Shown: piece by piece, positions 9,329 to 12,971 of the stretch | Layout: the number at the start of each line of letters is the position of its first letter | How positions within the stretch are numbered: position 1 is the first letter of the stretch | Source of the DNA: Alphaproteobacteria bacterium | GTDB lineage: Bacteria; Pseudomonadota; Alphaproteobacteria; Caulobacterales; Hyphomonadaceae | NCBI GenBank assembly: GCA_016125405.1 | Contig: WGLW01000002.1 | Coordinates: 1 to 58,648, forward strand | Direction of reading: 5' to 3' | Length of the DNA: 58,648 nucleotides | Translations under genes and position numbers: made by a program | The notes under the pieces: generated by a model | Told to the model about the DNA's origin: nothing | Seen by the model: the letters and a program-made list of their open reading frames with translations, nothing else | The model's database searches: none

Positions 9329-10903
9329 ATGGTCAAAGTACTTATCGCCGACGATCTCGCGGATGGTGCAACCGACATTTTCAGGAACCGCGGTATCGAG
9401 GTCGACCGGAAGGTCGGGCTCAAGAAGGACGAACTTATCAAGATTATCGGTGAGTACGACGGCCTTGCCGTCCGCTCGGCCTGCAAGCCGGACAAGGACG
9501 TCATCGCTGCCGGCGAAAATCTGAAGGTGATCGGCCGCGCCGGGATCGGCGTCGACAACGTCGATGTGAAGGCGGCGACGGCCAAAGGCGTCGTGGTGAT
9601 GAACACGCCGTTCGGCAACGCCATCACCACGGCCGAGCACGCCATCGCGATGATGTTTTCCGCCGCGCGCCAGATCCCGTCGGCGAGCCAGCGGACCCAG
9701 GCGGGCGAGTGGCCGAAGAAGGACTATGTCGGCGTCGAACTGTTCGCCAAGACGCTGGGCCTGATCGGCGCCGGCAATATCGGGTCCATCGTGGCCGATC
9801 GGGCGCTGGGCCTGAAGATGAAGGTCGTCGCCTACGACCCCTTCCTTTCGGCTGAGCGCGCCGTGCAGATTGGCGTCGAGAAGGTCGAACTTGACGACCT
9901 GCTGGCCCGCGCCGACGTGATCACGCTGCACACGCCGCTGACCGACCAGACCCGCAACATCCTCTCTGCGGATGCGCTGAAGAAGACGAAAAAGGGCGTC
10001 ATCATCGTCAACTGCGCGCGCGGCGGGCTGGTGGATGAGGCGGCCGTCCGTGCGGGCCTCGACAGCGGCGATATCGGCGCTGCGGCGTTCGACGTCTTCG
10101 TTGAAGAGCCGGCGAAATCCAACGTGCTGTTCGGCGCGAAGAACTTCGTGGCGACGCCGCACCTGGGCGCGTCCACCGTCGAGGCGCAGGACAATGTAGC
10201 CTTCCAGGTCGCCGAACAGATGGCGGACTACCTGCTGACCGGCGCCGTCACCAACGCGCTCAACATGCCGAGCGTAACCGCTGAGGAAGCGCCGCGCCTC
10301 AAGCCCTTCGTGGCGCTGGCCGAGAAACTGGGTCAGTTCGCGGGGCAGGTGGCCGACGGCGAACTCTCCGAGGTCGAGATCGAGTACGAAGGCGAAGTCA
10401 GCCAGCTCAACCGCAAGCCGATGACGGCGGCGGCGCTGGCCGGCCTGCTGCGGCCCTTCCTGGAAGAGGTCAACATGGTCTCGGCGCCCGCCCTGCTGCA
10501 GGAGCGCGGCGGACAGCTCAAGGAAAGCAAGCGCGACGACAGCCCGGTCTATGACAGCCTGATGCGCATCAAGGTGAAGGTGGGCGGCAAGTGGCGTTCG
10601 GTCGCCGGGGCCATCGCCGCAGGCCGTCCGCGCATTGTCGAGGTCAAGGGGATGGCGCTGGAGGCCGACTTCCAGCCCTACATGCTGTTCGTCAACAACT
10701 CCGACAAGCCGGGCTTTATCGGCGCCATGGCGGGCCTGCTGGGCGAGGCGAAGGTCAACATTGCGACCTTCAATCTCGGCCGCGAGGCCTCGGGCGGTGA
10801 TGCGATCGCGCTGGTCGGCGTCGATCAGGACGTACCGGTGAAAACGCTGGACGCGATCAAGGCGCTGCCGGCCGTGCGCTATGTGACGGTGTTGAAGTTC
10901 TGA
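9329..10903 (+). CDS. serA: D-3-phosphoglycerate dehydrogenase
   Basis: SerA (524 residues) oxidises 3-phosphoglycerate to 3-phosphohydroxypyruvate, the first step of serine synthesis. The domain order is substrate-binding (1-100), NAD-binding Rossmann fold with GLIGAGNIG (144-152), then catalytic Arg (NCARGGLVDE) and His (TPHLGAST). An intervening allosteric substrate-binding domain and a C-terminal ACT domain (about 450-524) follow. This is the long SerA form that usually has an ACT domain for serine sensing. A GGAGG ribosome binding site lies upstream of the ATG. Confidence 0.97.
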   Translation: MVKVLIADDLADGATDIFRNRGIEVDRKVGLKKDELIKIIGEYDGLAVRSACKPDKDVIAAGENLKVIGRAGIGVDNVDVKAATAKGVVVMNTPFGNAITTAEHAIAMMFSAARQIPSASQRTQAGEWPKKDYVGVELFAKTLGLIGAGNIGSIVADRALGLKMKVVAYDPFLSAERAVQIGVEKVELDDLLARADVITLHTPLTDQTRNILSADALKKTKKGVIIVNCARGGLVDEAAVRAGLDSGDIGAAAFDVFVEEPAKSNVLFGAKNFVATPHLGASTVEAQDNVAFQVAEQMADYLLTGAVTNALNMPSVTAEEAPRLKPFVALAEKLGQFAGQVADGELSEVEIEYEGEVSQLNRKPMTAAALAGLLRPFLEEVNMVSAPALLQERGGQLKESKRDDSPVYDSLMRIKVKVGGKWRSVAGAIAAGRPRIVEVKGMALEADFQPYMLFVNNSDKPGFIGAMAGLLGEAKVNIATFNLGREASGGDAIALVGVDQDVPVKTLDAIKALPAVRYVTVLKF

Positions 10904-10968: not shown

Positions 10969-11694
10969 ATGATCAGGCGCATCGCTATTCTTGCCGTCAC
11001 CGCGCTGATCGCGGGCGGTTTCGCTGCGCGGGCGCAAACGTCTGCGCCGCCCCTGATCTACTATGGCAACGCTGCAGGGCAGCTGACCATGGATCGCGAC
11101 AGGGAAGGCGGCAATCCGCTGGCGAGCGGGCTGATTGACGTGCTGCAGAAATTGCCGGTGTCGCTGTCCGAGTTCAGCTCGCGCCTTGCCGTGTCGACCT
11201 GGATGCACAGCGGCGAATGGCAACGCGTGCAGGTTCCAAAACGCTTGCCGGACCCGGGCTTCAGGCTGGCCCCGGGCGCCGGACAGACGCGCGTGGCGCT
11301 GGTGCTGACCAATTCGGATTATGGAAACAGCGGCGTCGCATCGCTGCCCGGCGCGCGCTTTGATGCGAAACGGCTGACGGAGGCTCTGGAGAAGGCCGGT
11401 TTCGAAACGCAGTCGCTCCTTGACGCCAGTGATGCTGCAGTGCGCGACGCGCTCTCGGAGTTTGCGGCGCGCTCGACCCATGCGGACGTGTCGTTGATCT
11501 ATCTCGGCGGACACGGCGTGCAGCACGCCCGCGTGGTCTACTGGATCCTGCGGGACTATCCCGATCCGAGAAGCGATGCATACCTTGCAAGCCACGCGCT
11601 GACGCTGGCGCAGGTAAGTGCGGCCGCGAAGGCGCGCGATCTCAATCTCATTCTGTATGGCGGCTGCAGGGACGATCCGTTTCGACATGATTGA
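10969..11694 (+). CDS. Secreted caspase-fold (C14-like) protein with apparent circular permutation
   Basis: A 241-residue protein with a signal peptide (about 1-23, ending ARAQT). Residues 108-240 are the caspase p20-like half: strand RVALVLTNSDYG, helix region with RFDAKRLTEALEKAGF, catalytic His182 in YLGGHGVQ and catalytic Cys233 in LYGGCRDDPF. The chain ends eight residues after the Cys. The segment that normally follows the Cys in bacterial caspase-like proteins (pattern LIAYATAPG, then an N-x-x-(S/T)-x-x-L helix) appears instead at the N-terminus: LIYYGNAAGQLTMD (29-42), NPLASGLIDVLQ (49-60) and an S-x-R-L-A-V segment to about 91. This indicates p10-like before p20-like order, joined by a Pro/Gly linker (92-107). 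The stop overlaps the start of the next gene by 8 nt. Protease activity and target are not established. Confidence 0.75.
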   Translation: MIRRIAILAVTALIAGGFAARAQTSAPPLIYYGNAAGQLTMDRDREGGNPLASGLIDVLQKLPVSLSEFSSRLAVSTWMHSGEWQRVQVPKRLPDPGFRLAPGAGQTRVALVLTNSDYGNSGVASLPGARFDAKRLTEALEKAGFETQSLLDASDAAVRDALSEFAARSTHADVSLIYLGGHGVQHARVVYWILRDYPDPRSDAYLASHALTLAQVSAAAKARDLNLILYGGCRDDPFRHD

Positions 11695-12043
11695 TGCCGA
11701 TTTTGCGACAACGTTCACGCGTGATTGGGTGCAGGCGTGGAACGATCACGACCTAGAGCGCATCCTCACGCACTATGCCGAAGACGTGGTGTTTCACAGT
11801 CCGCGCATTCGCGTGGTGACGGGAAGAAACGTCGACACGGTGACGGGCAAGACGGAGCTTCGCGCCTACTGGGGCAAGGCGCTGGGCCTGCTGCGGGACC
11901 TCTATTTCGAGGTTGACCAGGTTCTTACAGGGTCGGACGCGCTGACCATTCTCTACACCAACGAGCGCTCGCAAAGCGTCGCGGAGACTTTCGTCTTTGG
12001 TGCGGACGGCAAGGTTGTCACCAGCATCGCGGCCTACGTCTGA
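11687..12043 (+). CDS. SnoaL/NTF2-like protein
   Basis: A 118-residue protein of the NTF2/SnoaL-like fold (cone-shaped alpha+beta barrel). Indicators are the N-terminal helix with WVQAWNDHDLERILTHYAEDVVFHSP, a mid-region with TELRAYWGKAL, and the closing strands ETFVFGADGKVV. Such proteins act as small isomerases or hydrolases, or as ligand-binding domains; the ligand here is unknown. The ATG at 11687 overlaps the end of the caspase-like gene by 8 nt, suggesting translational coupling. An upstream in-frame extension would lie entirely inside that gene and has no family support. Confidence 0.8.
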   Translation: MIDADFATTFTRDWVQAWNDHDLERILTHYAEDVVFHSPRIRVVTGRNVDTVTGKTELRAYWGKALGLLRDLYFEVDQVLTGSDALTILYTNERSQSVAETFVFGADGKVVTSIAAYV

Positions 12044-12110: not shown

Positions 12111-12752
12111 CTAGGTCGCTGGGAGCAGAACCTTGTCGACCGGGTGAATGATCCCGTTCGACGTTGTGATGTCGGGGCCAACCACATTGGCGTCGGCGAC
12201 CTTCATCTGATCCGGATTGGCGGCGTCGATTGACAGCGTGCCGTTCATCGCCGTTTCAGTCGTCGTACCCTGAAGGTCGGTAGAGGTGACCTTGCCGGAT
12301 ACGATGTGGTGCTTCAGAAGCGCCGCGAGCTGGTCCTTGTTTTCAGGCTTCATCAGGTCGTCGAGCTTGCCCGGCGGCAGTGCGGCGAACGCGGCGTCGG
12401 TCGGCGCGAAGACGGTAATCGGGCCCGGGGCCGCCAATTCGTCCTCAAGGCCGGCCGCCTTCGCGGCGGTCAGCAGTGTGGAGAACTGGCTATCGGATGC
12501 CGCGACATCCGCAATTGTCTTGGTCGATGCATCCGGCATGGCCCCGCCGGGGGCCGTAGAGACTGGCGCCGTTGAGTCGGTCGTGGCCGGCATGGTGGTG
12601 CTGGGTGTTGTATTGGCCGCAACCTGGTCTGCCGGCGTCGTGGAGGGCGGGGTATAGTTGTCATTGGCCAGATCTGTCTGCTTCGAGCAGGCGCCAAGGG
12701 CCAGGGCGGAAAGGGCGACTGCTCCCAGGGCAGCCTTGTAATACCGTGTCAT
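12111..12752 (-). CDS. Fasciclin-domain lipoprotein
   Basis: A 213-residue protein with a lipoprotein signal (ALALGAC lipobox near residue 20-22), a Thr/Pro/Ala-rich linker to about residue 75, and one C-terminal fasciclin (FAS1/BIgH3) domain. The FAS1 motifs are visible: the FAPTDAAFAALP segment, LLKHHIVSGKVTS, and the closing NGIIHPVDKVLLP. Bacterial FAS1 proteins are adhesion or surface proteins, often stress-associated. The ATG at 12752 begins the signal peptide; the longer reading frame upstream has no signal and is not used. Confidence 0.92.
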   Translation of the reverse strand: MTRYYKAALGAVALSALALGACSKQTDLANDNYTPPSTTPADQVAANTTPSTTMPATTDSTAPVSTAPGGAMPDASTKTIADVAASDSQFSTLLTAAKAAGLEDELAAPGPITVFAPTDAAFAALPPGKLDDLMKPENKDQLAALLKHHIVSGKVTSTDLQGTTTETAMNGTLSIDAANPDQMKVADANVVGPDITTSNGIIHPVDKVLLPAT

Positions 12753-12971
12753 TTTCAAACTCCGTGTCAGGGCTGGATGCGAACTGGCCAAAATCACGTT
12801 CACGCGCGTGTCTCGCGCCCACCGGCCGCGCTCAGGCGCGACGTCCATGGGCTATTAAGGCATTGGGACGGGCCGGAGTTCCCGGTCTGACGCATAGTTA
12901 ATCGGGGGCTGGGACAAGTTGGCGCCGATTGCGCCTTACCAGCGCCCTCTTGGCGGGCCATACAGGAAGTC

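Follow-up and report, generated by a model that had tools for sequence, protein, structure and literature searches.

A bacterial C14 protein with a caspase fold that is very probably circularly permuted, its p10-like segment preceding the p20 half

Can the caspase fold be built in nature with its two halves in reversed order? This question is raised by a gene in the window, by which we mean the whole stretch of 58,648 nucleotides that was analysed, from an alphaproteobacterium of the Hyphomonadaceae. The encoded protein seems to carry its small-subunit-like (p10-like) segment ahead of the large-subunit-like (p20-like) half, and we think it very probable that the C14 fold is circularly permuted in this way. 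The gene and its parts are the following.

10969..11694, plus strand: putatively circularly permuted C14 (caspase-fold) protein, 241 residues and a stop codon (ATG at 10969, TGA at 11692-11694)
10969..11034, plus strand: probable N-terminal export signal, residues 1-22 (MIRR...ARA), read from the sequence, with export and cut site presumed
11053..11259, plus strand: small-subunit (p10-like) segment, residues 29-97, from profile and hhalign comparisons, with strand and helices taken from a structure model
11287..11682, plus strand: large-subunit (p20-like) half, residues 107-238, from Pfam, a match to a solved relative and hhalign

Membership of the C14 family can be assigned by sequence, with a PF00656 (Peptidase_C14) score of 56 bits vs the curated cut-off of 21.4. 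The Pfam match is confined to residues 107-188, which correspond to model positions 1-86 of 233 (E 6e-15), and the closest solved relative is the MALT1 paracaspase (3v4o), matched over residues 106-234 with E 5e-6. An NCBIfam model of a C14 subfamily also matches the three permuted members compared with it, far under its cut-off (27.5-34.2 bits vs 140). Ahead of the p20 half, the p10-like segment is laid out in the model as strand 5 (L29-Y32), a loop with D42 and helices after it, and a linker of about ten residues (98-106) joins the two parts. The sequence-only reading had placed a segment resembling the canonical tail (L29-D42 and N49-Q60) before the half that bears H182 and C233, and had the chain stopping eight residues past Cys233 in the motif GGCRDDPF; all these residues are located there, and the reading frame agrees with such an end. 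At the very N-terminus, the Tat-like motif RRx[F/L] is found in 10 of the 14 permuted proteins that could be aligned (the window protein among them; a fifteenth, divergent member is G581), and the window protein itself has the RR and lacks the F/L.

The identity of the N-terminal segment was approached with a profile of residues 27-102, searched against 344 open reading frames, 46 of them with a p20 match, of which 12 are orthologues and 34 are not. At E values up to 10 it gave 34 matches: every orthologue was recovered, together with 22 of the C14 frames outside the orthologues, and there was no match among the frames without p20 or among the reversed sequences of this set. The 22 matches outside the orthologues are individually weak (E 0.006 to 4.8), and all of them lie downstream of a p20 Cys, 20 directly after p20 and 2 between tandem domains; the remaining 12 C14 frames were not matched. 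By hhalign, the segment aligns with the p10 part of 50 canonical proteins at a probability of 95.4 (E 1.7e-8), vs 20.2 over 9 columns for the canonical p20 part, and so the alignment to the C-terminal part of C14 proteins, which had been proposed as a check, points to p10 homology. When the full permuted profile is compared with a single canonical C14 profile, a score of 164.0 is obtained over p20 and p10 appears as a separate second alignment of 44.1; with the canonical profile written twice, one alignment of 200.3 runs across p10-p20.

The reciprocal comparison gives the same picture. A canonical p10 profile matches the N-terminus of 15 out of 15 permuted proteins, with scores of 5.9-23.0 bits and E values (for 15 sequences) of 5.5e-8 to 0.012, the window protein being the weakest (5.9 bits, E 0.012) and the best reversed-sequence control reaching 2.1 bits. 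Swapping the halves back to canonical order raised the Pfam score in all three proteins treated in this way, by 0.7, 2.2 and 2.6 bits, and the gain over controls with a reversed segment was 1.1, 3.5 and 9.4 bits. The Pfam match then extends to 2-193 and 1-225 of 233 model positions in two of the proteins; for the window protein it lengthens only to 1-90 (1-86 before the swap), and the reversed control gave 1-89. A C14 protein of canonical order requires a small-subunit segment after the Cys strand, where the permuted proteins have only 6-9 residues; their p10 is N-terminal to p20, which is the order of type III metacaspases.

A structure model fits with this arrangement. AlphaFold2 was run with an alignment of 22 p20 pieces, taken from canonical proteins encoded on viral contigs, in which the N-terminal half had no homologues, and it gave a pLDDT of 75.4 and a pTM of 0.79; from the single sequence the pLDDT was 35.7 and there was no usable model. 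The predicted elements are a strand, two helices and a short strand, followed by the p20 series, which closes with the Cys strand. Confidence in the N-terminal part is 32-74 per block of ten residues, and it is low at mature residues 10-22 and 51-71. The modelled order of elements agrees with the canonical one in which the last part has been shifted to the front, and the N-terminal strand would lie beside the Cys strand, a placement suggested by sequence together with the element order of the model. In clan CD structures, caspases are cut between strands 4 and 5, the large subunit comprising strands 1-4 and the small one strands 5-6 (PMC4357240). The present chain appears to begin with strand 5 and to end past strand 4, in keeping with the earlier proposal that its ends fall at the caspase inter-subunit cut. 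The reading of a reversed domain order is thus supported by sequence comparison, with homology for both halves.

Among known systems, the canonical bacterial C14 proteins (orthocaspases or metacaspase-like proteins) share both homologous halves, the His-Cys dyad and the motif order within each half, whereas they have p20 followed by a p10-like part, mostly in frames of 400-900 residues; the permuted form has the p10-like part first and ends after the Cys. That a p10-p20 order is known from type III metacaspases, as the sequence-only reading stated, agrees with the descriptions of GtMC2 and PtMCA-IIIc (PMC5756287, PMC6426788, PMC8455989), which are placed in algae that arose by secondary endosymbiosis (PMC5756287, PMC8455989). 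By description, these are set apart from the bacterial protein in being eukaryotic, in their metacaspase-type p10 and in their calcium dependence. Engineered permuted caspases such as cpCasp2 likewise have their ends at the large/small junction and carry the small subunit in front, linked to the beginning of the large one (PMC7760212), but they were made by man from human caspases, whereas the natural protein is bacterial, probably exported, and has S1 acids of the basic type. Permuted caspase-2 is described as a constitutively active single chain, and reversed caspases-3 and -6 are cited as earlier examples (PMC7760212).

The same reading knew of no described bacterial example, and our literature search, which covered few subscription papers, found no natural or bacterial permuted caspase either; the permuted proteins met in it were non-caspase, as far as the available text of the sources goes. 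A survey of 11,208 prokaryotic homologues reports no p10-first type (PMC6426788), and p10 is not mentioned in the available part of PMC3501461. For p10, including that of type III, the survey applies a cut-off of 30 bits in its own model, a different one from our bacterial p10 profile with its maximum of 23.0 bits; the permuted proteins may well score below this cut-off, so the architecture was possibly missed. We think that other surveys with p10 score cut-offs may have overlooked it as well. The above evidence supports a C14 fold that was circularly permuted by nature in a group of bacteria, which would mean that the caspase fold can withstand such a rearrangement in evolution, in parallel to the algal type III metacaspases.

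Whether the permuted protein is also a working protease depends on its active site and S1 pocket, for which four residues are relevant.

11512..11514, plus strand: His182, the predicted catalytic histidine (GGHG), conserved in all 14 rows and in G581
11665..11667, plus strand: Cys233, the predicted catalytic cysteine (GGCRDDPF), conserved in all 14 rows and in G581
11362..11364, plus strand: Asp132, aligned with the helix-1 acid Asp365 of the MALT1 S1 pocket, an Asp in all 14 rows and in G581
11092..11094, plus strand: Asp42, aligned with the loop-5 acid Glu500 of the MALT1 S1 pocket, an Asp in all but one of the 14 rows, and in G581

The His-Gly and Cys dyad of C14 peptidases is found in 15 of 15 permuted proteins. 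MALT1 holds a P1 Arg by means of the acids Asp365, Asp462 and Glu500 (PMC4357240), whose numbers were transferred to the alignment by our own count. All 15 permuted proteins have the helix-1 Asp, 14 have the loop-5 Asp and none has the loop-4 Asp: two residues before the Cys, where MALT1 has Asp462, the 14 rows have Gly, Ala or Ser and G581 has Ala. MALT1 therefore resembles the window protein in the acids aligned with Asp132 and Asp42, and differs from it in its canonical order, its Ig domains and the retained acid beside the Cys. With two of the three S1 acids kept and the loop-4 acid lost, a basic P1 preference seems likely from the sequence but not assured. The one equivalent of Asp42 that differs is an Ala, in the permuted gene of G002 (L068, contig C46, 5182-5871).

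The Asp two positions before the Cys is invariant in 28 canonical proteins, and its loss in all 15 permuted ones means that substrate preference may have changed or that activity may be low. One could go further and suppose that the halves are truly permuted in a pseudo-protease, i.e., a caspase fold with a binding or regulatory role whose useful catalysis disappeared along with this acid, and bacterial pseudo-variants are indeed known (PMC6426788). We regard this as unlikely, as His182, Cys233 and Asp132 are kept in 15 of 15 proteins and it is a changed dyad that defines pseudo-orthocaspases in that survey (PMC6426788).

We lean towards a protease that works independently of cleavage, for which the following scheme can be proposed. 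A C14-family cysteine protease would be exported, judging from its N-terminus, and the strand-helix segment that normally comes after the Cys strand would form the N-terminal part of the mature protein, with the short linker leading on into the large-subunit half. Two chain ends would thereby take the place of the old inter-subunit linker that caspases must cut, and the chain could fold outside the cytoplasm directly into a processed-like arrangement, making inter-subunit cleavage unnecessary. The His-Cys dyad would then cleave after basic residues, with a pocket that retains two of three acids and has lost the one beside the Cys. Protease activity, its constitutive character, the P1 preference, export and the duplication route discussed below are all to be taken as inferred. 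If true, this would be nature's counterpart of the engineered permuted caspases, free of activation by inter-subunit cleavage. In the usual account of caspase activation, the linker that joins the large subunit to the small one has to be cut, and a natural protein with its ends at that place would offer a ready test of the linker.

The p10-like segment might instead complete the p20 half of another copy, in a swapped dimer. Caspases dimerise via p10 strands (PMC5756287) and the linker of residues 98-106 is just about ten residues long, yet the single-chain model reaches its pTM of 0.79 and engineered permuted caspase-2 functions with a short glycine-serine linker (PMC7760212), and we consider such an exchange improbable.

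Returning to the single-chain reading, the most likely route to the reversed order would start from a C14 domain duplicated in tandem, the pair then losing its leading p20 and its trailing p10. This route is suggested by tandem C14-C14 proteins in the same family: four frames (L060-L063, from G097, G102, G112 and G116; the sequence of L063 is cut at its start) contain a canonical C14 domain and then a second C14 domain. The permuted profile aligns on them from the p10 of the first to the p20 of the second domain (E 3.3e-13 to 5.0e-11); the N-terminal profile alone matched two of the four (E 1.4 and 1.8), and Pfam recognises two C14 stretches in the one tandem protein tested. In their second domain the His is lost (AGYG) and the Cys motif DCGRPF is kept, which suggests a chain in which an active domain is paired with a pseudo domain. 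In a p20 tree computed without G581, the 14 permuted proteins form one clade (support 1.0), whose neighbours, with a modest support of 0.72, are four canonical C14 proteins from within the genus, and the second domains of the tandem proteins form a clade of their own, so the sampled tandem proteins are ruled out as direct parents of the permuted gene. We think that such proteins, together with the permuted form in the same family, give a hint at how reversals arise.

The identical p10-p20 order could also mean that the bacterial protein belongs with the algal type III metacaspases, through common descent or gene transfer (PMC5756287, PMC6426788, PMC8455989), but the grouping of the p20 half with canonical proteins of its own genus, in a bacterial-only comparison, and the presence of tandem C14 proteins in the same family make this kinship very improbable. 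The fullest version of our preferred reading, i.e., an independent bacterial reversed caspase that arose via tandem duplication, is exported and cleavage-free, is the first prokaryotic p10-first homologue and serves as the sole C14 protein in some genomes, is one on which we stand evenly divided.

The permuted gene has a narrow distribution. Among the genomes of relatives, 25 of 61 have a match and 14, our own included, a nearly full-length one; in the family a full-length match (E < 1e-100) occurs in 14 of 105 genomes, those of 12 of the 15 genus members and of one genome in each of two other genera, and the 13 other full-length versions are 47-51% identical to the window protein. Two of the three genus members that lack the gene are just 73% and 77% complete, and the third, G014, is 99% complete. 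In the order sample the permuted form was found in 15 of 398 genomes, our own included, the fifteenth member being the divergent G581, from a different family of the order, with 80 of 234 aligned residues identical to the window protein; it is the sole carrier among 60 genomes of its family. The class and phylum samples contained it in 1 of 385 genomes (E up to 1e-13) and 1 of 398 genomes (E up to 1e-20), in both cases our own, and no other match listed there begins before profile position 88; seven candidates were scored per genome in these samples, so distant cases may be missed.

The chain ends are conserved in all members. The 14 aligned proteins stop 6-9 residues past the Cys and G581 stops 6 past it, and a tail after the Cys motif is absent from all 15 permuted proteins. 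Moreover, 101 distinct open reading frames with a p20 match were present in the scanned loci (a set that excludes G581), and only the 14 permuted ones end at most 4 residues past that match, the remainder continuing for at least 71 residues, bar one frame that runs off the edge of its locus. The p10-first order, whose conservation it had been suggested to follow in homologues, is kept in all 15 full-length members, and no close homologue found carries the normal tail that would imply a frameshift. Such a frameshift is excluded by the conserved ends, and with it goes the scarcely credible reading of a truncated ordinary C14 gene with a lost tail and a chance N-terminal likeness, which would account for Pfam recognising just the first third of the domain model but is already refuted, at the level of sequence, by these shared ends, by the reciprocal profile tests that give a p10-like N-terminal segment, and by dS above dN in both halves in eight of eight pairs (ratio from 24-fold down to 1.2-fold).

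The gene is flanked in the window by the following neighbours.

9329..10903, plus strand: D-3-phosphoglycerate dehydrogenase SerA, upstream neighbour, from family search and locus comparison
11687..12043, plus strand: SnoaL/NTF2-like protein (PF12680), downstream neighbour, whose first codon overlaps the 3' end of the permuted gene

Of 13 loci tested, 11 have both neighbours no more than about 1 kb away, serA upstream and the SnoaL-like gene downstream; one of the other two is cut on the serA side, and the other, in G002, has neither, as the permuted gene stands elsewhere in that genome (L068, contig C46, 5182-5871), away from serA-SnoaL. In G002 and G014, both genus members, serA adjoins the SnoaL gene with no permuted gene between them; the neighbourhood is therefore probably not functional, and a functional tie to the SnoaL gene was not adopted. 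For SerA, the eight plasmid records listed as best matches belong to alphaproteobacterial genera. In four of six genomes with the permuted form (G000, G008, G013 and G023), PF00656 (E up to 1e-4) matches the permuted gene and nothing else, two matches being counted in G020, twelve in G581, and two in G014, which has no permuted gene. A defence role is unsupported, the PADLOC caspase match being weak and seen in two of three proteins. On the minus strand of the window, 12111-12848, there is a frame with a lipoprotein-like start (LGACS) and a possibly fasciclin-like pattern.

Several other candidates were considered and set aside. The scan of genome contigs with the single protein gave one locus, L031, in which the match falls in a 459-residue frame, presumably of the GldG/ABC-transport type, and was judged to be chance. 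The 240-residue frame of L088 is canonical with a short tail of 71 residues. Five family matches outside the orthologues start at profile position 50 or before, namely the four tandem proteins and G126 (L064), which was left out as there are stop codons in that stretch. Among plasmid records, 82 match the window protein, and five with an apparent start ahead of the p20 half are read as ordinary canonical proteins, the match starting upstream of the annotated start in four and 18 codons inside the gene in H5. In L155, from the conjugative Sinorhizobium meliloti plasmid pEm1132b, two divergent neighbours are annotated as a caspase family protein and a SUMF1/EgtB family enzyme, and the match to the window protein falls in the second of these genes.
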